Origin: Zanthoxylum bungeanum
Taxonomy: Eukaryota > Streptophyta > Magnoliopsida > Sapindales > Rutaceae
Direction of reading: 5' to 3'
Length of the DNA stretch: 64,000 nucleotides
Assembly (NCBI GenBank): GCA_019454045.1
Contig: SKCR01007541.1
Span: 1 to 64,000 of the forward strand
Shown: one piece after another, positions 12,481 through 63,144 of the stretch
Position numbering within the stretch: the stretch's first letter is position 1
Layout: each line of letters begins with the position of its first letter
Notes under the pieces: generated by a model
Told to the model about the DNA's origin: nothing
What the model saw: the letters and a program-made list of their open reading frames with translations, nothing else
Databases searched by the model: none
Translations under genes and position numbers: made by a program

Positions 12481-12499
12481 ATGAACCAGCTACGTATGA

Positions 12500-24058: not shown

Positions 24059-24090
24059 CTGAAAATGGTGAGTAATAATAGCACTAGTAT
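24059..24090 (-). promoter_or_regulatory. 3' splice-site-like sequence before the LOG copy
   Basis: Reverse strand reads CTCACCATTTTCAG, then GTGCTATAAATTCAAC, ending about 70 bases before the LOG start codon. The relative at 52355-52385 has ACTAACCCTTTTCAG at the same place, with a CTAAC branch-point-like element. It could let LOG be expressed from a spliced subgenomic RNA. The TATAAATT just downstream could alternatively act as a TATA box. Confidence 0.4.
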
Positions 24091-24279
24091 CTTCCAAAGG
24101 ATGATTATTAGCTAAACAATAAAAGAAATCGTGAAAGGTCAAAAAGTCTGGATCCTGTCGGTGAAAATAAAGATAATTACAACAGAAAAGCAAATCAAAG
24201 CAATTATTAAGGTAACAAAATTGTGTATGCAATACGCCACACGCTTAGTATAAATTCATTAGGATGCGTCTCAAGAATT

Positions 24280-24510
24280 CATTATTTACTCAGCCATCTC
24301 TAATGAATTAGCTTTCCTCTTTGTGCTTGCCAAACACCATTCCTTCTTAAATACTCCATTTGTGTTTTTTCCTGAAAAACTAACACAAAAAATTAAAAAC
24401 TCTACAACATGTATACATAAAATATGAAAACACAAATTATAACAAAGTGTATGGGTTGTTTCCCTGCTAGCACTAAATTTTTCGTCTTCAACCAGAAGTG
24501 ACTGAAATCC
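24280..24510 (-). pseudogene. Remnant of pol 3' end and small Cys-rich ORF
   Basis: The reverse strand reads EKFSASRETTHT in one frame, matching VKLSARREATHA of the relative (about 53160-53215), the usual tail of plant gypsy pol. Then GGAATGGTGT and AATTCATTAGAGATGGC match the end of the Cys-rich ORF at 52709-53041. Everything between the gag linker and this point (protease to integrase) is deleted. Confidence 0.6.
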
Positions 24511-24621
24511 ATCTGTCAATGAGGTTTCAGCGTGATTTTGGATGTCCGATTAAAGATAATCATGTGACTGTTGCTTTTGAAAGGTCTCTTCCAACGATAA
24601 AGTGGCAAAAAGAATTTTGTC

Positions 24622-25776: not shown

Positions 25777-25875
25777 CTGAAAAATAAAAGAAAATAATAA
25801 TTACAGATAAAAAATAAAAAAAATTAGATACAAGTAAATTAGATAGCTTCAAAATTAATAACTCAAGAAAAATAA

Positions 25876-25894
25876 GACCCCGACAACGACTCCA
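25876..25894 (-). other. Primer-binding site (tRNA-Asp type)
   Basis: Reverse strand TGGAGTCGTTGTCGGGGTC, six bases inside the 5' LTR end. It resembles TGGCGCCGTTGCCGGGG, the tRNA-Asp-complementary site of Athila-type plant gypsy elements, with several C-to-T/G-to-A type differences. Confidence 0.7.
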
Positions 25895-25900
25895 AAAACT

Positions 25901-27785: not shown

Positions 27786-28599
27786 CTCTGCCCACCACAT
27801 CATAAACAATCAAAACATTTACTAGATATAAATAGCGAGCTCAGCACGACAAATAAAGCAATAACAAAATTTCTTAAACTTCTAAACTTCTCCCAGGACA
27901 CTTGCGAGGGTGACTTCCTCTTGGGTGATCCCTGTCTCGAACATGACTTCCAAAGTTAAAATGGTTGGCCCATCTGAAATCCAACCTGTAAAACTAGAAA
28001 ACTGGATTGGTGTGAGTTATAAAAACTCAGTAAGTAACCATTCTATTACTAAGAACAAATATACAAATCAATCATAGTAATAGTGTTTCATAATTATCAA
28101 GTTAATACGAGTTTTAGAATCATCGGCTTTCTATTATCTCTTATATCTTACCTATCTTAAATTTTCATATTTACATGTTATCAATACAATGGCCAGACAT
28201 TCAAAGCACAAGAAGCATGGATTCAAAATCACAAATTACGTCATACAACATCGGAACTATTTCAATGCTGAAACATGAGGTCACATATTAAAACTTATCA
28301 CAAGTAAATATCATCGAATCAATGACTCTAACAAACTTCTTTCTTTAATACCAAACCAATCTTTCTTTAACCATCTTTATTTACGGTAACTTTATAATAG
28401 CTTCACACTTGGGGTTTATTTTCATTCACATATGTCGTAGCACACTTCCCTTATATACATACAAATACAATTCCAAATACAATTTCAAAATTCTTACACA
28501 TATACTTACATAATATACTAATACAATTTAGCAAACACGCTTATAACCTCTGACATTCACACCGGTTTCAAATCATACAATCATTTCACATCAGCATAT

Positions 28600-30574
28600 T
28601 GTTGGATAATTATGACCCATAGCATCACTATTTATACAGAACATGGTGTTGTTGTACAAATTAACTATGTGACATAGGAAATTGCTCTTTTATCATTTAT
28701 AATTGGATTACCGTGATATATAAATGATAAAAGTCCATATGATTAGTACCAGATTAATAAGATATGAGACAATATTAATCCACTAAGGTTTAATCAATAA
28801 ATATCCCTAGTCGTAGTATTATCGAGACTTGACATCGATAATGCAGAATAGACTAGTATTATACTTGTGCGCGTTATGGAAGCGTAACAGCATAGTTCTC
28901 GTATATTTGGGTATTGGATACTCATGCAAGTGTAATAGGAGGTTCTGTTTACCGATGGTACGGAAACAGCTTCGCTCTGGATAGACCACTCGGAATCCCA
29001 TTGGTAGTATGACTATGTGTCTATGGGAGTCCGAATTAGGGTAGGTGTATTTGGTCTTAACCTGAGACTTGCATCACTAATACTTGCGACAATCAGTATA
29101 CTTTGGTTTTAGTTATCTAGGGCTTTAACAGGTTCTGTGTACGCCTCTTTTGTGTATACTGAGAATCGTAGTGTATTGGGTGTGATGTCAAGATGGAAGT
29201 ATCACTTCAGTCATATGGAGATGATTATCACGTAGGATACAGAACTGGTACTCTTGTATGCTACAGCTATCGGGATAATATGACAAGGTCATGATTATCC
29301 GATTATAAAGACTAGTTACCAGAGATCTGATTTATGCTTCGTATGGGGCAGACACAATTCCAGCCCCAGGCCTAGCATGTGACATTCGATACTGGATCGT
29401 AATATGCAATACTACGTATGCTACGCCTAAAAAAGATTACATATTCCTTTAAAGAATATTTCTGGAGAATTGGGTAGGCACGATATTTTGCTAGAAGCCA
29501 ACCATGTCTTGTAAATCAGGGAGAATGTGGTACCGGGTACGCACGTATTCGGATAGTCTGATGACCATATTTACTGCTAACATATCCAAGGATCTCTTGG
29601 GTCGCTTCCCGAAGATTCACCGTTGAGATTTGACTCGAAGAGAAAATTAATCTGGGATTAATTATGAGAGAAAAAAATTAATCTGCGATTAATTATGGCA
29701 ATAATTAATCTTGGAATTAATTATCAAAAGAGAGAATTAATATGAGATTAATTGCGTCGAGAATTTATCTGGGATTAAATTCGTCGAGAAGAGAGAACGC
29801 GATTAATTTAGAATTAATCGGTAAAGTAAATTTAATAGTTAAATTAGATTTTACTATTTAATTTATTTTATTGGGCTAAAATAATATATTGGATATATTA
29901 ATTGAAATTAGATTTCAACGCGGAATTAAAATTGGATTTTAATTCAAGCGAGTGAATTAATTTAGAATCAATTCGTAAGCGACTTTCGTAGTAATTTTAC
30001 GAGGCATTATTATTTAAATTAAATTGGATTTAATTACGTCGCAACGGAAAATTCGTTTAATCGGATTAAACGAACCCGAGCCCGAAGTGTGTTGGGCAAG
30101 CCCACTTGAATTTTGAATTTAAAGTGGGGCCCACCAACTTACATCAAATGTCTTCACAAGATTGATGGTGGTAGTTGAAAGTATTTAATGAATCTTACAC
30201 AACACACTTTTGACTTTTGCTTTTTGAAAAAGTATATACACTTTTTTGGAAAAAGAAATTGGTAAATGTTTTTGGAAAACAAAAACACAAAAACTTTTCT
30301 CTCTCTTTTCTCTACCATGGCCGAACACTTTGCTTCCTTGGAGGGCAAATTTTTCTTTCAATTTTTGTTCTTGATAGCACATAAGGAGTGAATCAAGGTG
30401 ATAGGGAAACTCACCCAATGGTTTAGAACTCTACTCAAAGCTTGGAACTTCATCTTCAACAAAGAAAAGTTTTGAATCTCATCCGATAAAAGTAAGTTTT
30501 TCCGCAACTTTCTTTTGCTTATTCACACACAAATCACTCTTAGACGATCTTGGCATGTTCTAGGAACACTAACA
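28600..30574 (+). repeat. 5' LTR of copia family 2
   Basis: Begins TGTTGGATAATTATGACCCA and ends GGAACACTAACA. Contains repeated GGGATTAATT / GAGATTAATT units (29640-29780). Confidence 0.88.
30317..30391 (+). other. Short ORF in LTR with ACCATGGCCGA start (24 codons)
   Basis: Begins MAEHFASLEGK, then Phe-rich, and ends TGA. The 3' LTR copy (38166-38240) keeps the same length with Glu-to-Asp, Ala-to-Pro and Ile-to-Leu changes. The start context equals that of the LARD LTR short ORFs (3978 and 9707). It lies about 180 bases before the LTR end, in the presumed transcript leader. Confidence 0.3.
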
Positions 30575-36439: not shown

Positions 36440-36450
36440 AAGTGGGAGAT
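36440..36450 (+). other. Polypurine tract
   Basis: AAGTGGGAGAT abuts the 3' LTR start TGTTGG. Confidence 0.7.
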
Positions 36451-38423
36451 TGTTGGATAATTATGACCCATAGCTTCACTATTTGTACATAACATGGTGT
36501 TGTTGTACAAATTAACTATGTGACATAGGAAATTGCTCTTTTATCATTTGTAATTGGATTACCGGGATATATAAATGATAAAAGTCCATATGATTAGTAC
36601 CAGATTAATAAGATATGAGACAATATTAATCCACTAAGGTTTAATCATTAAATATCCATAGTCGTAGTATTATAGAGACTTGACATCGATAATGCGAAAT
36701 AGACTAGTATTACACTTGTGCGCGTTATGGAAGCGTAACGACATAGTTCTTGTATATTTGGATATTGGATACTCATGCAAGTGTAATAGGAGGTTCTGTT
36801 TACCGATGGTATGAAAACAGCTTCGTTCTGGATAGACCCCTCGGAATCCCATTGGTAGTATGACTATGTGTCTATGGGAGTCCGAATCAGGGTATGTGTA
36901 TTTGGTCTTAACCTGAGACTTGCATCGCTAATACTTGCGACAATTAGTATACTTTGGTTTTGGTTATCTAGGGCTTTAACAGGTTCTGTGTACGCCTATT
37001 CTATGTATACTGAGAATCGTAGTGTATTGGGTGTGATGTCAAGATGGAAGTATCACTTCAGTCATATGGAGATGATGATCACGCAGGATACAGAACTGGT
37101 ACTCTTGTATGCTGCAGCTATCGGGATAATATGACAAGGTCATGATTATCCGATTATAGAGACTAGTTACCAGAGATCCGATTTATGCATCGTATAGGGC
37201 AGACACAATTCCAGCCCCAGGCCTAGCATGTGACATTCGATACTGGATCGTAATATGCAATACTACGTATGCTACGCCTGAAAAATATTACATATTCCTT
37301 TAAAGAATATTTCTGGAGAATTGGGTAGGCACGATATTTTGCTAGAAGCCAACCATGTCTTTTAAATCGGGGAGAACGTGGTACCGGGTACGCACGTATT
37401 CGGATAGTCCGATTACCATATTTACTGCTAACATATCCAGGGATCTCTTGGGTCGCTTCCCGAAGATTCACCGTTGAGATTTGACTCAAAGAGAAAATTA
37501 ATCTGGGATTAATTATGAGAGAGAAAATTAATTTGGGATTAATAACGACAATAATTAATCTTGGAATTAATTATCAAAATAGAGAATTAATATGTGATTA
37601 ATTGCGTCGAGAATTTATCTATGATTAAATTTGTCGAGAAGAGAGAACGCGATTAATTTAGAATTAATCGGTAAAGTAAATTTAATAGTTAAATTAGATT
37701 TTACTATTTAATTTATTTTATTGGGCTAAAATAATATATTGGATATATTAATTGAAATTAGATTTCAACGCGGAATTAAAATTGGATTTTAATTCAAGCG
37801 AGTGAATTAATTTAGAATTAATTCGTAAGCGAGTTTCGTAATAATTTTACGAGGCATTATTATTTAAATTAAATTGGATTTAATTACGTTGCAACAGAAA
37901 ATTCGTTTAATCGGATTAAACGAACTCGAGCCCGAAGTGTGTTGAGCAAGCCCACTTGAATTTTGAATTTAAAGTGGGGCCCACCAACTTATATCAAATG
38001 TCTTCACAAGATTGATGGTGGTGGTTGAAAGCCTTTAATGAATCTACACAACACACTTTTGACTTTTGCTTTTTGAAAAAGTATATACACTTTTTTGGAA
38101 AAAGAAATTGGTAAATGTTTTTGGAAAACAAAAACACAAAAACTCTTCTCTCTCTTTTCTCTACCATGGCCGACCACTTTCCTTCCTTGGAGGGCAAATT
38201 TTTCTTTCAATTTTTGTTCTTGCTAGCACATAAGGAGTGAATCAAGGTGATAGGGAAACTCACCCAAGGGTTTAGAACTCTACTCAATGCTTGGAACTTC
38301 ATCTTCAACAAAGAAAAGTTTTGAATCTCATCCGATCAAAGTAAGTTTTTCCGCAACTTTCGTTTGCTTATTCACACACAAATCACTCTTAGACGATCTT
38401 GGCATGTTCTAGGAACACTAACA
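36451..38423 (+). repeat. 3' LTR of copia family 2
   Basis: Pairs with 28600-30574. Ends GGAACACTAACA before the duplicated CATAT. Contains the conserved short ORF at 38166-38240. Confidence 0.88.
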
Positions 38424-46630: not shown

Positions 46631-46849
46631 AAGACGTGAAACAGACAGAATTTTCCCTACAAAACAGACTAATCCTATAAAGACAAAAGTACAATCAAAT
46701 GAGAAAAAAATATCTCCATATAAATACGATCTTCATTATCCAACTCAAAATACTCATCCATAATAAAATGAAAATACTTCATGTATCAAAAGTAGACTCA
46801 GTGCCTATAACCAAATAACAATCCATTCAAGAAAGACATATCTAAACCA

Positions 46850-48334
46850 TAATCCCAATATATAACAAAGATACTCTACTATTGGCACAACCTTTCTCTA
46901 CTAGTAGGAAATGATGATGAACAACAGATGAAAAAGGAATGATCTACTAATCAGCTTATCCTGTAAAATTTAAAGAAAGGGGTAAGCTCATGCTTAGTGC
47001 AATGGATCACAGCTTAGTATCGTGGATAAATAAGTAACAAGGCATATCAAATAAGTCTTTCATAATATAAATAAATACATAAAGTTGTAAACATGTATAT
47101 CAAATATTTACTTGAAATCATAAATCTCATTTCTCATAAATCTCATTCTGTACAATAATATTTTGTAAAATAAGTCTGTTCAATCATCTATATGCACACT
47201 CGTGACAATACGGCAAAGCTGGCAACATGGGGCATCCCCACGATAATAACTGACAACATAAGACCTCGTCTCACGACAAATAATCTAGCAAGTGTAAACG
47301 GAGTGCATCTCAGTATAAAAATCATTTCTAAAATCCATGCTCATGTATCTCAAAATCATGCAAATTTCTCATATATCACAAACTCATGATTTCAACGTAA
47401 TCAATATTTGATCTATTCTTTTATAGCAAAATACAAACTTTCTAAAAACTAAATCATTTTATGCATTATCTTGAAAATTCATTTAAGAAAACATACATAC
47501 TATATACTTTGGAAAACATCAATGTTACAAGCTTATCCACGCACCTGTGAGCTGACAACAGAGAAAAGAAACTATGCAGCAGAACTGTCCCTGCCAACGA
47601 TATCACGATCACCTAAAGAGACAAAGAATTTACGATAAGGAACATAATCCTAACTAGAATAGATGAAAGAATATGCAAGAAATATGACTCGGTCGTTCTC
47701 GTAATCCTAACGAAATTTTGGCAAAGTTCTGTCTATAATACGGACTTTCATTATACAATCCATAATCAACAAACTTATATTCATATTCGATTCACAAAAT
47801 ACACATCCATAATTTAATCCAACACCACTAGCCCAAATCTCGGACTCACAATAATTTACCGCATACAATCTTACTCGACCATATTCTCCAATGAAATATA
47901 TCATTCACTTCCAACCGCAAGTTCATCATTTATATAGTCGAAGCAAGTTGATTAATCATACTTTAAAGCAAATTCCGTTCCAAAATACTTAACATGCATG
48001 AACCAAATATAACGATAAATTATATGAAAATCAAGATTCGGAAGTCCGTTACTAATCGGAATGTTCGGGATAGTATGGAGGGAGACTAGGGACGTCAGAT
48101 GGAACTTACTGTCTGGTGCATATGAGCCAAGTGCCTCTCTTCATGGCCGCACGTGGGCCTCACGCGTCACTGCGCAAGGGGCGTGTGAGTGCCACGTGCC
48201 ACCCCTTTCTTTAAATTTTACAGGATAAGCTAATTAGTAGATCATTCATTTTTCATCTGTTGTTCATCATCATTTCCTGCTAGTAGAGAAAGGTTGTGCC
48301 AACAGTAGAGTATCTTTGTTATGTCTTGGGATTA
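46850..48334. mobile_element. Fold-back element or inverted LTR fragment with ~130-base arms
   Basis: The left arm 46850-46982 and the reverse complement of 48201-48334 match at about 94 in 100 positions, including TAATCCCAA, GGCACAACCTTTCTCTACTA and AGGAAATGATGATGAACAAC. The inner 1.2 kb has no coding. The outer end of the right arm is cut by insertion of the gypsy LTR at 48335, so terminal repeats and target duplication cannot be checked. Confidence 0.6.
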
Positions 48335-50330
48335 TGACTGGCGTAAACATACACGTATAACGCAAGCGTACGTATCGTTCAAGTAGTATAAAAAGTATCG
48401 ATCTCACGAGGACTTAAAACCTAATCTATTAATTTTATGAGGTCAAATGATTACTAGTATCTAACAGGTTGATTGATTGATTTGAAATGATGATGATTCT
48501 AAATTTAAAACAAGTAAATAAAATTACACAAAAGTAGGTTTAAAAAAATTCAATATTAAAAACTATCTAGGGTTGTGAATCTTTCTAATATCTTTTAAAA
48601 TATGAAGTGGTTATTTCATGGTTGTGTAATAAATCGATTTACTAACCTGGAACACTAAATTATGCAAAAGTCTATGTCCATGGTCAGACACAAATACCCA
48701 GTTTAACCCAATTGAACCATATGTCTATGTCAACCAAATTATCTGGATTCATCAAGTTTAAGTTCCAATTATGGCTACCCCCGCCCGACAGGTATATGTC
48801 TATCCTGTAAGGAAATCTATTAAAGGGTTATCTATCCTCAAGGAATATCGTGGGCTATTAAGTCTAAGGCTGAAACCTAAAATTCCTTTGTCAAGTTTAT
48901 TTTAGATTTACCACATTAATCTTATTAGTGATCAGACACAAGAAGCATTAAGCTTAAGATTAATAAGTAAACCTTTAAATTACCCAAACTATAAAATAAC
49001 CCTTATAAACCAGTGATATTAGAATTCCATCACAACCCAGATAATTGGCTTAGTTACGACACATATTTACGGGTAGTAAAAACTTAAATAAAATAAAAGA
49101 CATAAAGTAAAATACTGAAAAGTAAATTGCTGAAAATTAAATAAAGTAAAATTACAATAAAAGAAAATGATGAGGTAAAAGGATCCGCTTTTATTACTTC
49201 TATTTTAGATATCTGTCTTAATATAATATATTAACTTTGCATGATAATTACCAACCAGCCATATAGGCGGTATCCAGATTAAGTCAAATTAATAATTAAT
49301 TACCAACAGACCAATCAGGCGGTATCCAATTTAGTCAGGTTAAAACCAATTTAAATAATTACCAACCGACCAATATGGCGGTATCCTCGTTGAGTCAGAT
49401 TTTAACTAGTTTATATATTATAATTAAGGGAGATTAATCTAAATATTAGAAATAAAAGTTTTATCTTTTACCCCAGCAAAAGGGAGTTACCTCCTCATTA
49501 CTGAAAAGTAAAAACTGAAAATTAAAGAAAGAAAAGTATTGTGCGTAAAAGTAAATACAGAAAGTAAAAACTGAAAAGTAAAGAAAAGAAAGTGCGAAAG
49601 AGGAAATTAATTACTAAAAGCTGTAAATAAACAAACAAGATACAATCTTCTTAGTATTCTTAAGGAATTCCTTAGAAGAAAGTATGAATTTACAAATGAA
49701 ATGGCTTGATATTTATAGGCAAAATTTTACCTCCATCAAATCATCCACCAAATCCATTATTAATTGCTCCACTAATTGCTCCATTAATTGCTTCACCAAT
49801 TCCGTTATTAATTGCTCCACTAATTGCTTATCATTTTTGGTGGTGATTTGATAATTTTTATTATTTATTTTTTGCTTGGAAAATGATTGAAAATGACTTT
49901 AATAATTACACACAACACACTTCTGGATGGTTCATCAATTTCAGGCATGAAATCTTCTGAATTCGAAATTATTTTGTCATTCAAAGTTGTATATCTTTAA
50001 GTCTTCTTTAATCTGAAACTTGAATTAGCTCAATCCGATATTGGAGTAAAACGTTATGCCCAAAATACGACAGATGTGCAAAACTGAAATTTTCAAAACT
50101 GCACTTCGTTAAAACGCCTTTTCAAGTTTCCAATCTCCAAAATTAATATGTCAAGTCCAATTTTTGCCCTAATTTGACCCACATTTAGTCCTAAATGATT
50201 TCATTGTGTCCCAATATTATTTTATCTGCAAAATAAACTAAAACACATCAAAACGTTCATCAAACACGAGAAACTAAACAAAATATTAAGTAAAAGGGGC
50301 GGTAATTATTGATATATTTTCCGCTCATCA
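48335..50330 (-). repeat. 3' LTR of the pol-bearing LOG element
   Basis: Reverse-strand start TGATGAGCGGAAAATATATC at 50330 and end TTTACGCCAGTCA at 48335. Colinear with 20190-22010 and 25901-27785 but clearly more diverged. Contains three GGCGGT motif copies (49251-49395). Confidence 0.85.
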
Positions 50331-50343
50331 CACCCCCAAACCA
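50331..50343 (-). other. Polypurine tract
   Basis: Reverse strand TGGTTTGGGGGTG directly before the LTR start, matching 22011-22023. Confidence 0.8.
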
Positions 50344-50898
50344 AACATTTTGCTAGTCCTCGAGCAAAAAAAAAATAAAATAAAATACAAGAAACAATTA
50401 AAATTAAACTAAGCCACTTTCGTAGGGATCACGGTTGCATTTAGCATATGCAACAAGCTTTTAAACCCTTAGGTGTCCCTAGTGGACGAGTTATAGTCTC
50501 GTGAGGGCTTACAGCAACGATACCCACAAACGTTTTACAAAAGTAAAAAGATAATAAAACTAATGCACCAAAAGAAAAAAGACAAGAGAAAAGAGAATAA
50601 AGAAATTAGTGACTAATGAGGTGAAACTTCTACTACAAGTTACTAGTTGTTTTATTTCTTTCTATATTACTGAATAAGTAAATTCTCCGATTATATTTAC
50701 TATTCTCCTTATGCACAGCCGACAAAATATTAATCAACTCATTTTTGCCCACAACAGTCACAAGTACAGTTGATAAGAGAGTAATATTTTTGTCCTAAAG
50801 TTTTATCAGAATTCACACATTTTTGCAGCAATGGAATAATTTTTCTGATTTTTCTGATTTTTTTTCTTTGATTTTTGATTTTTTTTTTATTTATATAC

Positions 50899-51130
50899 AA
50901 TATCTTCCATCTATGTAGCGAGTGTTGGGTCGGTGACTCCCAAACCAGTTGGCTTTAGGGCACCAGGTGTTAAGACACCCCTACGGACTTAATTACTCAG
51001 ACTTAGATATATATATTTTGCAGCATCTTTGATCCATGTAGCGAGCTTTGGGTCAGTGACTCCCAAACCAGTTGGCTTTAGGGCACTAGGTGTTAAAACA
51101 CCTTACAGACTTAATAACTCGGATCTCAGA
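50899..51130 (-). repeat. Tandem duplication (~125 bases) in the element 3' UTR
   Basis: Two copies of a block with GACTCCCAAACCAGTTGGC, TTTAGGGCACTAGGTGTTA and GGACTTAATTACTC. Homologous to 22569-22806, so the duplication preceded divergence of the two elements. Confidence 0.65.
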
Positions 51131-51650
51131 TATTTTTTTTTACTCCATCACTTTTTGAGATGCTTCCTCCAATTAAACTAGAGCACTGAATATTACAAAC
51201 TTTTCAATTTTAGCTCATGTCCGTATGTTACAATGCATGTTGATAATATCTGCTAACTGAGCATATGAAGATCCATTTTAGTCAGTTTTATGGAGAATTT
51301 ACAAATTAAATAATTTAAAATGAAATAACAAAAACTAACTTGTTTCAAAATGGTTTGAGATACGTCTCAGGAGTGAAAATTCCTTACACAACTATCTCTT
51401 ACCAATTTCACCTTTTTAGTCAAAATAAAAACACAAAAACAAAAAATATTTTTGTAATTTTTGAAAATTTTTCAATTTTTTTTTTCGAAAAAATTTGGAC
51501 TAAAAAAAAACACAACTAAACAAACTAAACTAACAAAAAAAAAAAAAATTCCCTCCCTCCCCAAACCTAAATGAGACATTTTCCCCAATGTCTTAAACAG
51601 TAGAAGAGAGTTTAGAAGATATACCTGGTTAGCTGAAATTCTACAGGAAA

Positions 51651-52302
51651 TTAAAGGTTAAGATCCAGATTAATCCGACGCCTCTTACCACGATCGTCCT
51701 CGGACCAATTTATCATTGAAAGGATAGGGTCAACTTGTGGTTCATAGGCTAAGAGTTGGTCTATTAGATCTGGAGCAGTTCTGGCAGTATCGAGGAGTTC
51801 TTTCATAGGTTTTGACACGAACCCATTTCTCTGAGCATCATCAAGAAACACACAAAGAAAATCATAAAATCCTTCAACGTTGTACAGTCCAAGCGATTTC
51901 TGGTGTATGTTCAGGTTCGCCCAAGATAACACTATAAAAATTTCCTCCAATGTGCCCAAGCCACCTGACAAAGCAATAAAAGCATCAGCACGGTTAATCA
52001 TTTCTACCAATCATTCAGACATACCTGGCACGATTAGTTCCTCTCCGTTTGATGGTCCAATAAGATTTGCCTCCGCCAAGGGTTTTGGGATAATTCCCAA
52101 AACGTGACTGCCTCATTCATGTACGGCCTTTGAATGATCCCATAAGTCCAAGATTGCCACCGCCATATACTAAGTGCATATTCCTTATAGCTAAGACTCG
52201 ACCCAATTCCAGTGCTGCTTCTATGTATTGTAGCTTAACACCAACACTAGTACCGCAAAACACACAGATGTTTTCAACTCGTCTTCTTGAAGTGGCTTCC
52301 AT
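51651..52302 (-). pseudogene. LOG-like cytokinin riboside 5'-monophosphate phosphoribohydrolase, retroelement copy 2
   Basis: Starts MEATSRRRVENI, CVFCGTSVG, LGRVLAIRNMHLVYGGGNLGLMG, so the nucleotide-binding loop is better preserved than in copy 1. A one-base frame change follows near 52130. The next frame gives KAVHE, TGA (52113-52115), GSHVLGIIPKPLAEANLIG, then MSE, TGA (52011-52013), [23 protein letters not shown]. Pro of the PGGxGTxxE active-site motif is Ser here. The last 119 codons are open and end with KRRRINLDLNL. Both TGA codons match stops at the same alignment positions in copy 1. It is intronless and about 217 codons, full length for the family. Position is downstream of pol and of a Cys-rich ORF, upstream of the 3' UTR, in the slot where other Athila elements carry an env-like ORF. 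Confidence 0.87.
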
Positions 52303-52354
52303 GTTTTACTCTGGATGTCTTTAAAAGTGCAATAATGAGTTGAATTTATAACAC

Positions 52355-52385
52355 CTGAAAAGGGTTAGTAAAATAATAGCACTAG
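52355..52385 (-). promoter_or_regulatory. 3' splice-site-like sequence before LOG copy 2
   Basis: Reverse strand TTTTACTAACCCTTTTCAG, then GTGTTATAAATTC. ACTAAC fits a plant branch point and TTTTCAG an acceptor, 53 bases before the LOG start. It is conserved with 24059-24090 although the flanks have diverged. Confidence 0.45.
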
Positions 52386-52708
52386 TACATGCCAAATGAC
52401 AATTATTAGTTAATAGTAAAATAAATCGTGATAGTCAAAAAGGTATGGATCCTATCGGATAAAATAAAAGAAAACAACAAAATAAATTATAATTATTAGG
52501 AAAAGACAAAGAGATATAATATTTACAAGAAAAGTAGCGGCTTGATTGACGTCTATGCGTCAGGGACAAGCTTCTCATCCAATTTTCTTATAAATTGGCA
52601 AACAGGGTCTTTTTGAGTCAGATTCCCGAGACTTAACTATTGTCTTTCCTTTTGAAATTGTGCATATAATTTGCGAATGGCTATATGAACATATCCACTT
52701 TGATGCAT

Positions 52709-53041
52709 CTAAAGAGTCAAAGATATATTATCTACAGACTCTTTACTCAAGCCATCCCTAATGAATTTAATTTTATCTTCGCGATTATCAGACACCATTC
52801 CTAAAGAAAGACAACGAGTATTGCAATTCCAGCGTGCACATTTGTAACAAACACCCATTTTCTTAGCTCTACATTTCTTTGCATAGGTGCTTCTTCCAAA
52901 TCCAGGCAAATAAGAATTACAAGAATCAGAATACTCACCTACTAATCGGACCCGTGCTCCAATTACCCAACGAATGTCATTAGGAACACCATGGATCGTT
53001 AGTAGTTTCATCTGTTCCAAGCGAGCTTTGTAGACTTTCAT
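52709..53041 (-). CDS. Small Cys-rich ORF between pol and LOG (110 codons), unrecognised
   Basis: Uninterrupted frame starting MKVYKARLEQMKLLTIHG. It is basic in the N-terminal half and then has CRAKKMGVCYKCARWNCNTRC (Cys spacing around CX2CX4CX3C), which could bind zinc, and a polar tail ending ISLTL. I do not recognise the family. It follows the end of pol closely (pol tail at about 53160-53215) and precedes the LOG copy. A remnant of its last third is at 24286-24345 in the pol-less relative, so it is a regular part of this element family. Alternatives are a displaced integrase C-terminus or a captured host fragment. Confidence 0.45.
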   Translation of the reverse strand: MKVYKARLEQMKLLTIHGVPNDIRWVIGARVRLVGEYSDSCNSYLPGFGRSTYAKKCRAKKMGVCYKCARWNCNTRCLSLGMVSDNREDKIKFIRDGLSKESVDNISLTL

Positions 53042-53159
53042 CAGAGAGTGTTGAGGGAGAGAAGGAAATTGCTTGTGAAGATTTATGAAAGCTTATTCCA
53101 TCTTGAAATGACTTAATCTGCAAAAACTAACACACCAAATTAAATCACACCAAATCACA

Positions 53160-54671
53160 ATATATACACAAATTGCATGGGTTGCCTCCCTGCGAGCGCT
53201 AAGTTTAACGTCGACAGCTAGACGTGACTTCTCGAATGTTAGGCTGGATCTGAAAGTGTGACACTTCTTTTTGTCGCTCAAACGATTCTCCCCAGTAGTG
53301 CTAGACACGCTGACTATTAACCTTGAATTTTTCGTTGGTGTTGGGATCCAGTAACTTAACAGCTCCATATGGTAAAACCTGAGTGATCACAAATGGACCT
53401 GACCAACTTGATTTCAACTTTCCAGGGAAAAGTTTCACCGTGAATTATACAACAACACTTGCTGCTTTGGTTCCAACTGTATGTGCACTATTTTTTGATC
53501 ATGTCATTTCTTGATCTTTTCTTTGAACAATCTGGCTTTCTCATAAGCTTGTAAGCGAAATTCCTCCAATTCGTTGAGTTGGTGAAGTCGTTTCTCTCAT
53601 GCAGCTTGTGAATCAAGATTCAACTTCTTTAATGCCCAGTACGCCTTGTGTTCAAGCTCAACGGGCAGATGGCACGCTTTTCCAACACCAATTGATATGG
53701 GGACATACCAATGGGTGTCTTGTAAGCTGTTCAGTAGACCCATAATGCATCATCTAGTTTTGTAGACCAATTTTTCCTTGTTGATCCAACTGTTCTCTCT
53801 AAGATTCATTTGAACTCTCTATTTGAAACCTCAACTTGTCCATTTGACTGTGGATGGTAAGCAGTGGCAACTTTGTGAGTAACTTCGTATTTGGTTAGGA
53901 GTGCATGGAAGTATCTGTTGCAGAAATATGTGCCACCATCGCTGATGATTGCACGAGGTGTTCCGAACCGAGTGAAAATATTCTTTTTCAGGAATTTGAT
54001 CACCATTTTTGAATCATTGGATGGCAGTGCAATTACTTCGACCCATTTGGAGACGTAGTCTACAGCAACCAAGATGTACAGGTTTCCGAATGATGGAACA
54101 AAGGGTCCCATGAAATCTATTCCCCACACATAGAATATCTCCACTTCTAGAATGTTTTACATGGTCCTTCATTTCTCTTTGAAATATTCCTCATTCTCTG
54201 GCACCTGTCACATTGAAGAGTAAAAAGATAAGTATCTTTAAAAAGAGTGGGCCATAACAAACCTGATTGTAGGACTTTGGCTGCAATTTTGTTTCCGCTG
54301 AAGTGTCCGGCATATGGTGATGAATGACAGTGCTGCAAAACACTGTTGATCTCCTCTTGTGGAACACACCGTCTCAATAATTGATCAGCACACCGTTTGA
54401 ACAGGTACGGCTCATCCCAGACATAGTGCTTGACTTCTTTGAAGAATTTCTTCCGTTGCTGAGTTTTCCATTCCAACAGCCATTTTTCTGACACAATGTA
54501 GTTGACATAGTCAGCATACCAAGGGGCATCTTGCTGTTTCATGGCAAACAGCTGTTCATCTAGAAAATTTTCTTTGAATAAAAGATCTTTGTCAGCTGTT
54601 TCTCCATTCTCGAGCCTTGATAGATGATCTGCCACTTGGTTTTCTGTCCATTTCATGTCTTTGATCTCCAC
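53160..54671 (-). pseudogene. gypsy integrase (mostly readable, interrupted)
   Basis: From 54671: the RNase H tail [12 protein letters not shown], then the HHCC zinc-binding region with HCHSSPYAGHF and CDRCQ (54390-54190). The catalytic core has the first Asp in GIDFMGP (about 54120), the second in ISDGGTYF (about 53960) and Glu in [11 protein letters not shown] (about 53820), so the DDE triad is intact. Stops occur at about 54145 and 53803. The C-terminal part, with SGPFVITQVLPYGAVK and VNSQRVKHYW (about 53410-53280), carries the GPF/Y-type module. It ends in VKLSARREATHA. The enzyme would insert element cDNA; this copy needs at least three corrections. Confidence 0.82.
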
Positions 54672-55960
54672 GTCAAATTCTTACATAAGAAGTATCCAAC
54701 GAATCAATCTGGGTTTAGCATCTTTCTTCGTGATCAGATAATTGATTGCTGAATAATCTGTGTAGACCACCACTTTGGGACCCAGCAGATAGGAGCGGAA
54801 TTTGTCAAAAGCGTACACAATTGCGAGCAACTCCTTTTCAGTGGTTGTGTAGTTAAGTTAAGCTTCATTCAAAGTTCTGCTGGAGTAGTAAATGGTGTGA
54901 AAAATCTTTGCTTTGCGTTGTCCCAAAACTGCACCTACAGTAAAATCACTAGCATCACACATTACTTCAAATGGAAGGGTCCAGTCTGGTGCTACAATGA
55001 TGGGGGCAGAAATCAGCTTTTGTTTTAAGATCTCAAAAGCTTCCTGACATTCTTTGGTGAAGTTGAAAGGCTCATCCTTCTCCAGAAGATTGCAAAGAGG
55101 TTTAGCAATCTTGGAAAAGTCTTTGATAAATCTCCTGTAAAAACCTCCATGTTCGAGAAATCTCTGAATCCATTTGACAGATGTCAGCGGAGGTAGTGTT
55201 TCAATTATTTCAATCTTTGCTTTGTCTACCTCGATTCCTTTTTGTGAGATCAGGTGTCCAAGAACAATACCCTCATATACCATGAAATGGCATTTCTCCC
55301 AATTGAGCACCAGGTTTGTATCGTCGCACTTTTGTAACACATGTTCCAAATTTTGCAAGCAGTAGTCAAAAGAATCTCCAAACACAAAAAAGTCATCCAT
55401 AAAAACCTCCATACTCTGCTCCAGCATGTCTGAGAAGATGGCCATCATGCAACACTGAAATATAGTAGGGGCATTACATAATCCAAATGGCATTCTACGG
55501 AAAGCAAAAGTACCATAGGGACATGTAAAGGTAGTTTTCTCCTGGTCTTCCGGTGCGATGGCAATCTGATTGTACCCTCAATATCCTTCCAGAAAACAAT
55601 AGATCTCATGTCCTTCCAGTCTTTCTAACATCTGGTCAATGAATGGTAGCGGAAAATGGTCCTTTCGTGTTGCTTTGTTCAGCTTTCGGTAGTCCATGCA
55701 TACTCTCCATCGATTCACCGTTCTAGTTGGGATTAGCTCATTCTTTTCATTGGTAACCACAATGATTACTTCTTTCTTCGGCACACACTGCATAGGACTC
55801 ACCTAAGTACTATCTGAGATGGGGTAAATGATGCCAGCATCCAACCATTTGATGATTTCTTTCTTTACGACCTCCTTCATGATTGGATTGAGTCTCCGTT
55901 GATGTTCCACTGTGGGTTTGTACTAATCATTCATCAGAATCTTGTGCATGCAAAATGATG
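54672..55960 (-). pseudogene. gypsy reverse transcriptase and RNase H (interrupted)
   Basis: Upstream frame (55802-55578) has WRVCMDYRKLNKAT and HFPLPFIDQMLERL; a stop replaces Ser/Gly at about 55577. The next frame (55493-54858) has MPFGLCNAPTIFQ, the catalytic VFMDDFFVFG (about 55395), LGHLIS, FYRRFIKDFSKIA and the RNase H start FEVMCDASDF. After a stop at about 54857 come [22 protein letters not shown] and VADHLSRL, completing the Asp-Glu-Asp-Asp set. Synthesises cDNA from element RNA in active relatives. Interrupted by few stops compared with the copia elements nearby. Confidence 0.85.
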
Positions 55961-55962
55961 GA

Positions 55963-56470
55963 CTAATGCCTCGAATGTCTACTATAGTCCAGCCAATAGC
56001 TCTTTTGTGCTCTCGTAATACTCTCAGTAACTTTTTCTTCCTGCTCCAATGTTAGTGAAAAATAAATAATAACAGGTAATTCAGAAGAGTTTCCAAGAAA
56101 TGCATACCTGAGATGGCTCGGAATTTTCTTCAGCTCTAGCTGTGGTGGTTCTTCAATCGAAGGCTTGATTCGATCTTTCTTTGGCAGTTCCAGGCTTTCC
56201 ACTTGTGGTGTTGATTTGAATTAGAATGGTTTGTCAAGGTAGTTGATACATTCCAGGATTTTAGCATCTAGCTCACTCTCAGTCATGTTGGTAATGCAAG
56301 CTTCAAGTGTATCCATGGGATTTAGCTCAGTATTCTGAATGACACTATCAACAACATCAACTCTGAAGCATTCTTCTTCCTTTTCATCGCTCGAGAATTT
56401 CATGGCTTTGAAAACATTGAAAGTAACTTCTTGGTCTTGAAGTTTCATGGTTAGTTCTCCTTTTTGTACA
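55963..56470 (-). pseudogene. gypsy protease-RT linker
   Basis: Frames starting MKLQDQEVTFNVFKAMKF (56448) with EACITNMTESELDAKILECI, and MESLELPKKDRIKPSIEE (56202) with LELKKIPSHLRYAFLG and ISSSL-like EQEEK sequence. It matches the same region of the second gypsy copy at 62398-62949. At 56470 the gypsy homology stops and copia leader begins. Confidence 0.75.
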
Positions 56471-57971
56471 ACAAATCACGACTTGGACAAGACACCGATA
56501 TGGAACAAAACTCTCATGATTCAAACACATCTGCAATTGACAAAGGTCTTGACTTTGGCCAACAAACCAATGCCAACTTTGGATCTTGAGTAAGAATCAC
56601 TCAACGGAATGAAATAACGCTTAATATTTTTTGAGGGTTTTTCGCGTAAATTGGCAACCAATTTATTATCTTTGTTAAGGTCTCATCATTCACCCTTAAG
56701 CATGCATTTCTAAAAGCATAATAAGGCGCGGAAAGTAAATTAATAACGATATGCGGATGGATATTTCAACAGATTGTTCCTAGAACAAATCGCTCCATTT
56801 CCTCTCCCCGGCTAGCACTATTCTACTTCTACCCAATTACATAATACAATAATATAAACCTCATTGACATTGAGGGGAATTAGGTGAGAAGAGAATACAA
56901 AGAGATAATAAGAGATAAGGCTGGACACGCAGGTCCAATTTATAAATTCCAAATTTACAATAATTTCCAAAATTACCCTTTCCCTTCTAATATCCATCCG
57001 ATATACGCTATTCATTCAACACATCCATATATTCATTCATAGCATGCATTACAACCAATCTAATCCAATTAATTAGTCTTTAATTATGTGACCATCCAAT
57101 GTTCAAACAACGATTTGATTTTGCGCGAGTCCAACTCGTTTGAGAATAAGCATTCAAAGTACGAATTCTTGAATTATATCGAACTACTCGTTAAATCTAA
57201 TTTAAGTCGTATTCAATACTAATTCTATTATTTAATTCCAAATTAAATATTTACACTTTTTAATACGCTTTAACGACTTAGATTCCAAATCTAATCTTAT
57301 CAGGTCTCAAAGCCCAACTAACATCCAATGTTCGTTTAATTAAAGTCTGATGGGCTTTCAATTAATTTAATAAGGCATGGGCTTTGGTCAATGTGGGTCA
57401 AACCCAATTACCAAGCCCAAGTAAGGAATCACCATCATTTGCCATAAAACCAATATCAAACCCATAAGGCCCAATTAAACTTTAAAGCCCATTAACCAAA
57501 TTTTAAGAATTCCAAATTTTATAACTTAGTAATAAAAGTGTAATACATCAATTAATTAACTAAATCAATATTTCCAAAGTACAATTTAACCAATTAATTA
57601 TGTATCTAATTGTCCAACAATTTTTGAATCAAAAATCAAGTCCAATACATGCCATCAAGTTCTCGGCCAAGGTAAGGAATTTAGTCCAATTTCATTTTTC
57701 AATCCAATCGAATTACAAATCGACTTTTCCATTCGTTTCAACTCATCCAATGATCATCAAAATAAAAAATACCAAGAACCTAGGGTTACATACACATTCG
57801 GCCAAGCCTTATGGTGGGGCACAATTTTGATCCAATCATAATTTGTTGAAATTGATACAATCATACCTCATTTCATCAACATACAAGCATACTCAACCAT
57901 TCAATTTAATAAAATCATGCTCACATGGATTTTCCCCAAATTTTACCCTAATACATTTCATGCTCATTTTA

Positions 57972-57987: not shown

Positions 57988-59937
57988 TGTTGGTTTCTAT
58001 GATTAGTCCCAAGAACATAATGAAAAAAGAAATGTGAATGAATAACGAAGAAGAGTAGCGGAAACAAACTTACATCGATCGGTTTAAGGATGCGTTGATC
58101 AACAAAAATTTGCTCCAAGATGCTCAAGAATTCGGCCAAGAACAAGAAGAAGCTCAAAGCTTTGATTTGATTTTTCCAAGCCCTTGGATAGGTTTCCCTA
58201 TCACCTCTTGATGATCCTTGAAGAGTGCTAGTCCTTAGTGAATTTTTGCAACAAAGATTCACACATTTCCTTCACACTTTTGGCTAAGAAAATGAAGAAA
58301 ATGGAGAGCAAAAACTGGTTCACAGTTTCGGCTTTTGGGAGAGAGAATAGAAGATTTTGTTTTTCAATTCTATTTTGGCTTCCAAAATCGTATATGAGAA
58401 ATTGGAAAAACAATTACCAAATTTTTGGTAAAATGGTTTACAAAAAGTCAAAGCCATTTTGGCTCCAATTTTGCATTAATTGCCCACACCAAACTCCATC
58501 ATAAATAGTGACAAAATGTCACTCACAAAAAGACTTTGACATCTATCACAATGAATGACAAGTGATGTGACTCGCGATGTGACTTGTGGGCCCCACTCGA
58601 ATTCAAAATGCGAATGGGCCCGCAAACACTTCCGGGCTCGGTTTCGCTAATTCTGAATTAACGAACTTCCGTCGTGATGTAATTAAATAATCATGCCTAG
58701 CGAAATTACTATTCACGTCGCTAACGAATTAATTCTAAATTAACTCGGTTGCCCGAATTAAAATCCAATTTTAATTCTGCGTCGAAATCCAATTTCGTTT
58801 AATATATCGAATATATTAATTTGTCGATTGATTCCAAATTAATCTTTCTCTCTCTTCAAATAGTACTTTATCCAAGATACAGTGTCTCCGCAATTAATCC
58901 CAGATTAATTATGCTCGGATCATACTTCATCGGTGAATCTTCAGGAAGCGACCCAAGAGATCCCTGGATATGTTGGTAGTAAATACGGTCGTCGGACTAT
59001 CCGAACACGTACGTACCTCGTACTACGTTTTTACCGATTTACGAGACAATGTTGGCTTCTAGCAAAGCGACATGCCTACCCAATTCTCCAGAAATATTCT
59101 TACTAGAATATACGATCTTTATCAGGTGTAGTATACCGTAGTATTGCGTATTGCGATCCAGTATCAGATGTCACATGCAAGGCTTGGGGCTGGAATAGTG
59201 TCTGCCCCATACGAAGCACATATCAGATATCAAGCAACTAGTCTCTTTGAATCGGATAATCATGACCTTGTAATATTATCCCGATGGTTGCAACACAATA
59301 GAGAACCAGTTCTGAATCCCTGTGTGATCATCATCTCCATATGTCTGAAGTGATACTTTCGTCTTGACATCACATCCAATACACTACGAGGCGTACACAG
59401 AACCTGTTAAAGCCCTGGACGACCAAAACCAAAATTTTCCGATTGTCGCAAGTACTAGCGATGCAAGTATCAGGTTAAGACCAAATACACCTACCCTGAA
59501 GCGGACTCCCATAGACACATATATATACTACCAATGGGATTCTGCGGGGTCAATCCAGAGCGAACCTGTTTTCCGTACCATCGGTAAAACACAACCTCCT
59601 ATCGCACTTGCATAAGTATTCTATACTTAAATATATGAGAACTATGTCGTTATGCCCTCACAACGCGCACAAGTGCAATACTAGTCTATTCCGCATTATC
59701 GATGTCCAATCTCGATAATACTACGACTAGGGATATTTAATGATTAAACCTTTATGGATCGATACTGTCTCATATCATCTCAATCCGGAACTAATCATAT
59801 GGACTTTTACCATTTATATATCAAAGTAAATAAATTACAAAACGGTAAAAGGTAATTTAATTACAACATAGTCAATTTTGTACAAAAACACAATGTCTTT
59901 TACAAACAGTGACGCTATGGGTCATAACTGTCCAACA
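57988..59937 (-). repeat. 5' LTR of reversed copia family-2 fragment
   Basis: Starts TGTTGGACAGTTATGACCC, close to the LTR at 13885 (TGTTGGACAATTATGACTC), and ends CCAACA. Contains the family's TTAATTCC / GGGATTAATT block (58700-58920). Confidence 0.82.
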
Positions 59938-59942
59938 ATGTG

Positions 59943-60896
59943 AGATTCAATAGACGTCTCGAGATGACTACTTTGATTTTAGTTTTCCAGGGAAAAGTTT
60001 TAACCGTGAATCGTATAACAACACCTGCTGCCCTGGCTCCAGTTGTCTGCGTACTATTTTTTTTCATGCCATTTCTTTGTCTTTTCTTTGTACATTTTCG
60101 CATTCTCATAAGCATGTAGGCGAAATTCCTCAAATTCGTTGAGTTGGTGGTGTCTTTTCTCTCCTGCAGCTTGTAGATCAAGATTTAACTTCTTCAGTAC
60201 CCAGTACGCCTTGTGCTCAAACTCCACTTTCAAATGGCACACTTTCCAAACACCATTTGATATGGGGACATACCAATAGGTGTTTTGTAAGCTGTCCGAT
60301 AGGCCCATAATGCGTCATCCAGTTTTTCAGAACAGTCCTTTCTTGTTGATCCAATGGTTCTCTCAAAGATTCTTTTGATCTCCCTGTTTGAAACTTAAAC
60401 CTATCCATTTGACTGTTGATGTAAGCAGTGACAAATTTATGAGTAACTCTGTATTTCTATAGGAGTGCATCGAAATATCCATTGCAGAAATGCTATCACT
60501 GATAATCGCCTGAGGTGTTCCGAAGCGAGTGAAAATATTCTTTTAAAGGAATTTAATCACCACTTTTGAATCATTTGATGGTAGTGCAATTGTTTCAATC
60601 CATTTGGAGCCGTAGTCTACTGTAACTAGTATGTACAAGTTTCCGAGTGATGGAACAAAGGGTCCCATAAAATCAATCCCCCATACATCAAATATCTCCA
60701 ATTCTAGAATATTTTGTAGAGGTCCTTCATTTCTCCTGGAAATATTTCCCGTTCTCTGGCACCTGTCACATTGAAGAGAAAATAAATAAGCATCTTTAAA
60801 AATAGTGGGCCAGAACAAACCTAATTGTAAGACTTTGGCTGCAGTTTTATTTCTGTTGAAGTGCCCACCATATGATGATGAATGACAATGTTGCAA
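59943..60896 (-). pseudogene. gypsy integrase (second copy, decayed)
   Basis: From 60896: [13 protein letters not shown] and [11 protein letters not shown] (zinc-binding HHCC), then [14 protein letters not shown] with the first catalytic Asp and KVVIKFL. The segment with the second Asp (about 60480-60510) is shortened and out of frame. The part after it is readable only in pieces, such as QLNEFEEFRLHAYENAKMYK (about 60150) and VVIRFTVKTFPWK. It ends beside the copia LTR. Confidence 0.72.
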
Positions 60897-61142
60897 GACA
60901 CTATTGACCTTCTCATGTGGAACACATCGTCTCAGTAATTGATCAGCACAATGTTTGAAGAGGTACGGCTCATCCCAGACATAATGCTTGACTTCTTTGA
61001 AGAACTTCTTTCGTTGCTGATGAGTCTATTCCAACGGCCATTTTCCCGATACTATGTAATTGACATAGTCAGCATACCAAGGGATATCATGCTGTTTCAT
61101 GGCAAACAGATATTCATCTGGAAAAGTTTCTTTGATTTTCAC

Positions 61143-62255
61143 TTATTTGCCAGCTGTTTCTCCATTTTCGAGCCTCGATAAGTGATCTGCCACTTTGTTT
61201 TCTTTCCATTTCCTATCTCGAATCTCCATGTCAAATTCTTGCAGTAGAAATATCCAACAAATCAATCTGGGTTTGGCATCTTTCTTCACGATCAGGTATT
61301 TGATTGTTGAATAATCTGTGTAGACCACCACTTTGAGACCCAATAGATAAGAGTGAAATTTATCAAAAGTGAACACAACTACAAGCAACTCATTTTAAAT
61401 AGTTGTGTAGTTGAGTTGAGCTTCATTCAGAGTTTTGCTTGAGTAGTAAATGGTATGGAAAATTTTTACTTTGGGTTGTCCCAAAACTGCACCTACAGAA
61501 AAATCACTAGCATAGCACATCACCTCAAATGGAAGGTTCCAGTCTGGTGCTACAATGATGGGAGCAGAGACGAGCTTATGTTTTAAGATCTGAAAAGCTT
61601 TGTGGCATTCTTTGGTGAAGTTGAAAGGCACATAAATCTCAAGAGGATTGCACAGAGGTTTAGCAATCTTTGAGAAGTCTTTGATAAATCTCCTGTAAAA
61701 GCCAGCATGTTCGAGAAAACTCTGAATCCTTTTGACAAATATTGGTGGAGGTAGTTTTTCAATTGTATCGATCTTTGTTTTTTCTACCTCGATTCCCTTT
61801 TGTGAGATTCGATGTCAAAGGACGATGCCTTCCTGCACCATGAAGTGGCATTTCTCCCAGTTAAGTACCAGGTTAGTATCTTCACATCTTTGTAACACTT
61901 GTTCCAGGTTTTGCAGGCAGTGGTCGAAAGAGTCTCCAAACACAGAGAAATCATCCATAAAAACCTCCATACTTTTTTCCAGCGTGTTTGAGAATATGGC
62001 CATCATGCAACGTTGAAATGTAACAAGAGCATTGCATAATCCAAATGGTATCCTGCGGAAAGCAAAAGTACCATACGGACATATAAAAATATTTTTCTCC
62101 TGATCTTCTAGGGCGATGGAAATCTGATTATGCCCCGAATATCCATTCAGAAAGTAATAGAATTCATGTCCCGCCAGTCTGTCTAGCATCTGGTCAATGA
62201 ATGGTAACTGGAAATGATATTTCCTTGTTACTTTTTTCGGCTTCTTGTTGTCCAT
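61143..62255 (-). pseudogene. gypsy reverse transcriptase and RNase H (second copy)
   Basis: RT frame 62255-61815 has HFQLPFIDQMLDRL, YSGHNQISIALEDQEK, PFGLCNALVTFQ and VFMDDFSVFG (catalytic Asp pair, about 61955). Further frames have IAKPLCNPL-like sequence, FEVMCYASDF (first RNase H Asp in CDASDF context is preceded by Tyr), [10 protein letters not shown] and [12 protein letters not shown]. Several stops separate them. Slightly closer to an open frame in RT than the other copy, and worse in integrase. Confidence 0.8.
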
Positions 62256-62397
62256 GCATACTCTCTATCTAGTTACTGTTCTTGTTGGAATCAGCTCATT
62301 ATTTTCATTTGTGACTACAGTTATTCCTCATTTCTTTGGCACACATTGTATAGGACTCACCCAAGTGCTGTCAGAGATGGGTAGATAATTTGATGAT

Positions 62398-62949
62398 TTA
62401 TTTCTTCACAACCTCTTTCATGATTGGATTTAATCTCCGTTGATGCCCCACTATAGGTTTGTACTTGTTATTCATCAGAATCTTGTGTATACAAAATGAT
62501 GGACTAATGCCTCGAATGTCAGTTATAGTCCATCCAATGTCTTTCTTGTGTTCTCGTAACACTCCCAGTAGCTTTTCTTCCTGCTCCAATGTTAGCGACG
62601 AAGAAATAATCACAATTAATTCAGAAGAGTTTCATAAGAATGCATACCTGAGATGGCTCAGAAGTAGCTTTAGCTCCAGCTGCGGTGGTTCATCAATCGA
62701 AGGCTTTATTCGCTCTTTCTTCGGTAGTTCCAGAATTTCCACTCGTGGTGTTGATTTGAAGCGAAATGGTCTGTCAAGATAGTTGATGCATTCCGAAATT
62801 TCAGCATCTAGCTCACTGTCAGTCATGTTGGTGATGCAAGCTTCAAGTTTATCCGTGGGAAGTGGTATTGCATCAATATCCTGGATTACACTATCTATAA
62901 CATCAATTCTGAAACATTCTTCCTCATTTTTATCACTCAGGAATTTCAT
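62398..62949 (-). pseudogene. gypsy protease-RT linker (second copy)
   Basis: MKFLSDKNEEECFRIDVIDS, EACITNMTDSELDAEISECI, VEILELPKKERIKPSIDEPP, then MIISSSLTLEQEEKLLGVL and GWTITDIRGISPSFC. Colinear with 55963-56470 and with the acidic frame of the pol-less element (24622-25035). Confidence 0.75.
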
Positions 62950-63144
62950 GGCTTTGAAAACATTGAAGGTAAATTATTGGACCTGCACTTTCATGGTTAG
63001 TTCTCCTTTTTGTACATCAATAACAGTTCGACCTGTAGCCAAAAATGGTCTCTCAAGGATGATAGGTACATCTTTATCTTCTTTCATGTCAAGGATAATG
63101 AAATCTGCTGGAAGAATGAGTTTTCGACTTTGACCAGCCTATCG

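Follow-up and report, generated by a model that had tools for sequence, protein, structure and literature searches.

Why a plant Ty3/gypsy retrotransposon should carry a gene of the cytokinin-activating LOG family between pol and its long terminal repeat (LTR) is the question raised by a 64,000-nucleotide stretch of Zanthoxylum bungeanum DNA (contig SKCR01007541.1, positions 1 to 64,000), referred to here as the window. A preliminary description of part of it had read a Ty3/gypsy lineage with LOG as an accessory open reading frame (ORF) and had proposed that such an element raises cytokinin locally. We confirm the observation with corrections, and the interpretation is partly supported. The overall explanation that we consider likely is that an Athila-like family captured and kept two accessory genes, one derived from LOG and one encoding a cysteine-rich protein (CRP), and that the LOG gene was remodelled. 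The accessory-gene part of this explanation is very probable; a changed substrate and binding to TOPLESS-type co-repressors would be a tentative and rather doubtful mechanism.

Element A lies on the minus strand at 48335-56474, is truncated at its 5' end near 56474 and has an Athila-like layout. Read 5' to 3', it consists of pol, the CRP frame, an acceptor-like site, the LOG-like gene, a 3' untranslated region (3' UTR), a purine-rich stretch and the LTR. This order, from integrase to LTR, had been proposed earlier and is borne out by Pfam matches and by reading of the sequence. The LOG-like gene (51651-52302, minus strand, as are all features of this element) has a C-terminal tail, KRRRINLDLNL, and its 3' piece (51651-52010) matches PF03641 (Pfam, E 1.8e-21). 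The earlier reading of a full-length, intronless LOG frame stands, but the frame is not open: a frameshift located between 52117 and 52103 disrupts it, as does one in-frame stop (52011-52013) that occupies the position of the conserved catalytic Arg. Upstream of the gene is a putative acceptor-like site read from the sequence (TACTAACCCTTTTCAG, 52355-52370). The CRP frame (52553-53101) has 182 codons, three in-frame stops and an open piece at 52709-53041, and slightly upstream of it lies a second putative acceptor-like site (TTTTTGCAG, 53118-53126). The pol remnant (53302-56474) carries many stops and frameshifts and retains reverse transcriptase (RT), RNase H, and the zinc finger and core of integrase, in the order RT, RNase H, integrase according to Pfam. 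On the other side of the LOG-like gene, the 3' UTR (50331-51650) contains a tandem repeat of ~123 bp (50902-51133) and the purine-rich GGTTTGGGGGTG, which adjoins the 3' LTR (48335-50330; TGATGAGCGG ... CAGTCA; bounds from homology to the LTRs of element B and from blastn). An inverted-repeat element at 46848-48336, with 136-nt arms that are 96% complementary and spaced 1217 nt apart, has its right arm ending no more than 2 bp from the 3' LTR end of element A.

A second element in the window repeats the arrangement. Element B (20190-27785, minus strand) is complete, with a target site duplication (TSD), CAGAG, on both sides (20185-20189 and 27786-27790) and a 3' LTR (20190-22010, 1821 bp) and 5' LTR (25901-27785, 1885 bp) that are 92.6% identical (K 0.078). 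All its features are on the minus strand. Its LOG-like gene (23339-23991) is in the same slot as in element A and is likewise broken, with an in-frame stop (23698-23700) at the very codon, that of the catalytic Arg, which is a stop in element A. The gene is followed by the 3' UTR and purine-rich stretch (22011-23338), with a 129-bp tandem repeat at 22568-22819, and is preceded by a putative counterpart of the acceptor-like site (TACTCACCATTTTCAG, 24059-24074). Further upstream are a CRP remnant (24285-24344; local alignment score 55 against element A, reached by 0 of 1000 shuffles, of which the highest scored 31) and a post-pol stretch (24427-24503; score 64, highest of 300 shuffles 32) whose counterpart follows pol in element A. 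No match to pol was found in element B by blastn. Broken ORFs at 24622-25776, between the post-pol and primer-binding-like stretches, appear gag-like by a Cys/His stretch read by eye, and three ORFs scanned in this region gave no Pfam match. The stretch resembling a primer-binding site (25878-25894) agrees at 14 of 17 positions with the complement of what we take to be the 3' end of tRNA-Asp. A third copy of the family, represented by pol (59965-63020, minus strand; 83% identical to 53400-56474 by blastn), ends before the CRP/LOG slot, and the 64-kb window ends within it. LOG is therefore present in both of the two family copies that retain the slot, the third of the three stopping short.

The preliminary description had held that LOG in one copy only, or at differing places, would speak for chance; within the window neither is the case. 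Chance similarity to LOG was judged unlikely in light of the PF03641 match and of the second element with the same arrangement, and a host LOG pseudogene lying beside an LTR by accident was rejected because the arrangement recurs in element B, which has a TSD of its own. A purely local event, in which one LOG-bearing element was duplicated in the window, would account for two LOG copies less than 30 kb apart. We regard it as extremely improbable: element B is bounded by a separate LTR pair and TSD, the element A LTR is just 71% and 74% identical to the two LTRs of element B, no pol is seen in element B, and relatives occur in other named plants. Because element B holds LOG in the same slot together with the post-pol stretch and a CRP remnant, the common ancestor of the two elements most likely had pol, CRP and LOG, with LOG retained in the non-autonomous form.

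Comparison of the two elements bears on whether LOG was maintained. The LOG regions are 83% identical across 894 aligned columns and the 3' UTRs 86% identical across 1260 aligned sites. Over 209 codons of LOG, Ks is 0.31, Ka is 0.11 and Ka/Ks is 0.36, despite decay after insertion. The plain distances of LOG and 3' UTR are equal (K 0.155 for each), so it is from the codon comparison that the argument for selection on LOG comes. The 3' UTR distance amounts to roughly half the LOG Ks and half the LTR distance (0.32-0.36), and the tandem repeat of 123-129 bp is kept in both elements; the 3' UTR may thus be under constraint. For the window CRP, comparison with an open homologue on contig L001, considered below, gives a Ka/Ks of 0.24, the two alternative frames giving 0.77 and 0.92.

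Plant LTR elements are known to transduce host genes, and a LOG cDNA picked up by accident and carried along as a functionless hitch-hiker would agree with the broken state of both window copies, neither of which bears out the open LOG copy that had been sought. The LOG Ka/Ks argues against such passive transduction, as does the retention of LOG by element B while pol and most of CRP were lost. So does the constancy of length among database relatives. The LOG query returned 1074 proteins at E<=1e-20, and all counts of relatives given here concern the best 120 of these 1074; exactly 217 aa were found in 81 of the 120, despite identities as low as ~46%. Taken together, these points make passive transduction very unlikely.

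Named sources of the listed relatives are Populus (some labelled LOGL10), Paulownia, Reevesia and Xanthoceras. Apart from published Citrus and Populus cases, we infer that the database relatives lie in LTR elements, because of their constant length and the several copies per named genome. As the comparison set for host genes, the 120 host LOGs nearest AtLOG3 (LOG3-like) were used. A phylogeny of element-type and host genes, as the preliminary description had suggested, placed 41 element-type rows (40 of the 120 relatives and window copy A) on one side of a branch with support 95/91, apart from 19 of the 120 host LOGs, AtLOG8 and one bacterial LOG; the tree has no firm root, the bacterial outgroup being a long branch. 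With two elements sharing the slot, the codon evidence and this separate group of relatives, the proposed lineage with LOG as an accessory ORF holds up. A scan of viral contigs with LOG gave one distant locus, L002, at 38% identity.

What the LOG product does was approached through residue counts in the 100 listed relatives of 200-260 aa and in the 120 host LOGs. The catalytic Arg is kept in 88 of the 100 relatives, the catalytic Glu in 97 and both in 87. PF03641, the PGGxGTxxE motif and the catalytic Arg and Glu together place the gene in the LOG family, with a stop at the Arg in the window copies. It resembles plant LOG1/3/4-type enzymes (AtLOG3, PDB 2a33) in sequence family, PGGxGTxxE motif and catalytic pair, and the best PDB match of P0073 is 2a33. 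In contrast to LOG1/3/4-type genes, the window LOG copies are intronless, and the element LOG has replaced pocket residues and a basic/LxLxL tail that is absent from the 120 host LOGs. The prenyl pocket of CgLOG is formed, according to the accessible part of PMC4979012, by Met, His, Lys, Glu and Trp, each of which is kept in 120 of 120 host LOGs. Among the 100 relatives, Met is kept in 80, His in 16, Lys in 4, Glu in 4 and Trp in 99; three of the five (His, Lys and Glu) are replaced in most, and the full prenyl pocket of a cytokinin-activating LOG enzyme is not preserved in most of this set.

These counts cut both ways for the view of the element LOG as an ordinary cytokinin-activating enzyme that raises cytokinin locally and so biases cells toward meristem or germline fate. 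Membership in the LOG family by PF03641, the PGGxGTxxE motif and catalytic pair kept in most listed relatives, and the largely retained pocket Met and Trp speak for it. The loss of pocket His, Lys and Glu, which the host LOGs hold without exception (pocket as given in the part of PMC4979012 at hand), and a conserved C-terminal tail absent from the compared host LOGs speak against it, and we consider it unlikely. The earlier proposal of locally raised cytokinin is accordingly doubtful: family and catalytic pair agree with it, and it is weakened by the replaced pocket residues and by the broken state of both window copies.

The tail combines a basic cluster with LxLxL. The final 12 residues contain LxLxL in 94 of the 120 relatives and in 0 of the 120 LOG3-like host LOGs, and the tail is present in 75 of the 81 relatives of 217 aa and in representatives of 16 of 19 clusters (80% identity). 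Among the 26 relatives without it, several are shortened or differently ended predictions. A set of 92 tails, selected with a pattern that already demands a portion of the tail, has Leu at its four Leu positions in 83, 86, 89 and 87 cases, with variable residues in between. LxLxL is a form of the EAR repression motif, which binds TOPLESS, and the tail thus has the LxLxL version of the EAR-type pattern (LxLxL or DLNxxP). The replaced pocket residues and the conserved basic/LxLxL tail argue for a changed job of the element LOG as more fitting than plain cytokinin activation. A remodelled LOG, possibly TOPLESS-binding, beside a virus-like protein would be the better fit.

That virus-like protein is the CRP. 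The open piece of element A matches PF01623 above the cut-off (1.1e-5) and PF05515 below it (2.2e-4). Homologues number 72 at E<=1, of which 23 are 182 aa, with Xanthoceras, Populus alba, Orobanche, Acer, Striga and Rhamnella among the named sources. One CRP-family protein, P0064, carries the label Clostridioides difficile. In 23 selected long members, PF05515 matches 20 (best E 1.1e-8, spanning ~83 residues) and PF01623 matches 17 (best E 1.5e-7, ~32 residues) at E<=0.001, with no further Pfam family at E 0.001 or better. Of nine proteins scanned against Pfam, eight pass the cut-off of PF01623 or PF05515. These families comprise the cysteine-rich, nucleic-acid-binding proteins of carlaviruses, which the CRP resembles in having a basic stretch followed by a Cys cluster and from which it differs in its length of ~182 aa, in conserved parts beyond the match and in being encoded by a retroelement. 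Carlavirus-type cysteine-rich proteins are said to act as RNA-silencing suppressors. A gag zinc knuckle was also considered for the CRP and dropped, as the frame lies downstream of pol and has matches to no families other than viral nucleic-acid-binding ones.

The likeness to carlaviruses could have arisen by convergence, a basic stretch with a Cys cluster being a simple pattern, or viruses could have taken the gene from retroelements. The scores are modest even at best, the CRP structure model is poor, and the viral likeness is known from Pfam profiles, not from direct viral sequences. Against this stand the breadth of the PF05515 and PF01623 matches, in number of members and in residues covered, and the lack of any other family at the same threshold in those 23 proteins. 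We consider this alternative a real possibility that falls short of likely. No locus was found in a scan of viral contigs with the CRP. A scan of genome contigs gave one locus, L001 (1-3330), a plant-like contig filed under a Candidatus Nomurabacteria metagenome-assembled genome, which holds a plant-type gypsy pol and a CRP gene and is probably plant DNA inside a bacterial genome record. Its open 182-aa CRP (1799-2347) begins ~190-200 bp after an open integrase frame (194-1594) that has both the zinc finger and the core of integrase but lacks a chromodomain.

Several observations weigh against the explanation by two captured and kept genes and a remodelled LOG. In the window, neither LOG copy is intact and the CRP is broken too. 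For the CRP, one of the nine proteins (P0050) matches neither PF01623 nor PF05515, the L001 protein is above the cut-off for PF05515 only, the viral link depends entirely on Pfam scores, and the structure model has a mean pLDDT of 58.6. Association of the two genes is not constant: no LOG was found in the ~980 bp downstream of the CRP in L001, which means that CRP and LOG need not travel together, and although one gene model from Acer (P0060) joins a CRP part to a LOG-like part, its LOG-like part scores under the Pfam cut-off (24.5 vs 26.3). The two genes are adjacent in the window and, by the P0060 model, in Acer, and can be separable elsewhere. For the LOG, the catalytic Arg is absent in 12 of the 100 relatives and the pocket Lys still present in 4; 52 of the 92 analysed tails belong to one cluster; the tail comparison covers host LOGs nearest AtLOG3 and no other host types; and LxLxL is a short motif from whose sequence TOPLESS binding is predicted. 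The 120 relatives were the closest to the query, and it is for the window's two LOGs that a position inside LTR elements is shown, the placement of the database proteins being deduced.

Assignment of the family combines evidence from different copies. Element B provides the LTR pair and TSD of a Ty3/gypsy LTR element and element A the RT-RNase H-integrase order, no single window copy showing all three together. The Athila layout is seen in the lack of a chromodomain, in room for one RNase H (~230 codons between the RNase H start and the integrase zinc finger in element A, read by eye) and in extra ORFs 3' of pol. No chromodomain was found in 7 scanned window ORFs or in the L001 integrase frame, an absence weakened by the broken pol of element A. 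The Athila ORF-1 domain PF03078 had no match in the scanned gag-side ORFs, which are broken; in the available part of PMC6317226 it is found in 16% of Athila elements. We therefore call the family Athila-like, a designation by layout and not by a tree. Like Athila, a non-chromovirus OTA lineage as described in the portion consulted of Neumann 2019 (PMC6317226), it has an extensive non-coding region, extra ORFs in sense orientation between pol and the 3' LTR, no chromodomain found and space for a single RNase H; what sets it apart is the identity of the extra ORFs, one a LOG-derived gene and the other a carlavirus-like CRP.

Steinbauerova and co-workers reportedly described in 2011 (Genetica 139:1543) a pair of Athila-like elements whose extra ORF is similar to LOGL4. 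The capture of LOG by Ty3/gypsy elements is not new, being already in print, and the earlier remark that a hormone-metabolism gene in this slot was not known to be described no longer applies. Alvarado-Marchena 2022 (PMC9289625, as far as its accessible sections go) gives a YgdH/LOG domain in Ty3/gypsy consensuses of Citrus sinensis and C. clementina, and also of Populus trichocarpa when no copy-number filter is applied, and calls this result 'in line with' Steinbauerova et al. 2011. Those elements share with ours a LOG-family domain within Ty3/gypsy, and Populus appears in both sets. Their account in section 12 of that article names the domain only and gives no partner gene or non-autonomous form, no test of selection and nothing on the pocket or the tail, and 'carla' does not occur in its main text. 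Among the papers listed on LOG in retrotransposons, judged by title and the opening of the abstract, PMC9289625 was the one relevant item. LOG, YgdH and cytokinin are absent from the part of PMC7264820 at hand. An orchid Ty3/gypsy lineage with an AlkB-type RNA demethylase, also covered in the sections of PMC9289625 available, is similar in having an enzyme gene fixed as an extra ORF; the enzyme differs, and theirs was assayed in vitro whereas the element LOG is known from sequence alone. The CRP link, pocket change, tail and non-autonomous form were not found in the literature searched, which covered few subscription journals, and no relevant report of carlavirus-type or silencing-suppressor proteins or of an EAR motif in retrotransposons was found by titles. 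The virus-like partner and the remodelling of LOG may therefore be new.

Other repeats occupy parts of the window. Repeats at 28598-30574 and 36449-38423 are 96% identical, lie ~7.85 kb apart and resemble LTRs belonging to a younger element; pieces related to them occur at 13883-15188 and 58677-59939. At 10930-13665 and 17799-18548 there are copia-type pol ORFs on the plus strand (read by eye) and copia-type gag (PF14223) on the minus strand.

The explanation that we prefer would run as follows. An Athila-like family would have gained two genes downstream of pol before the window copies inserted. The LOG-derived gene was probably taken up as a processed copy, because it is intronless, and the CRP gene, related to carlavirus nucleic-acid-binding proteins, would have been acquired as well. 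Selection would have maintained both during element replication, and the non-autonomous element B would have lost pol and nearly all of CRP while retaining LOG. The two genes most likely work in the element's favour. As the acceptor-like sites suggest, LOG and CRP may each be expressed from a spliced subgenomic RNA. The LOG product is predicted to be nuclear, to have an altered substrate and to bind TOPLESS-type co-repressors through its LxLxL tail, and the CRP could be an RNA-binding silencing suppressor like its viral relatives.

In its widest form, which we hold to be speculative and improbable as a whole, this would be an Athila lineage widespread in eudicots with a host-manipulation cassette: a silencing-suppressor-like gene that plant RNA viruses also have and a LOG turned into a nuclear TOPLESS recruiter with a new nucleotide substrate, which would affect RNA silencing and the transcriptional or hormone state to win germline copies. 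The data also suggest that some annotated Populus 'LOGL10' genes may be element genes, in which case LOG gene-family counts would be inflated. If the explanation is true, one plant retrotransposon lineage has kept two host-aimed genes across distant plants, the first of a type known elsewhere from RNA viruses and the second a remodelled hormone-enzyme gene, and their products would be proteins with which to test how LTR elements of plants overcome silencing and select cells.

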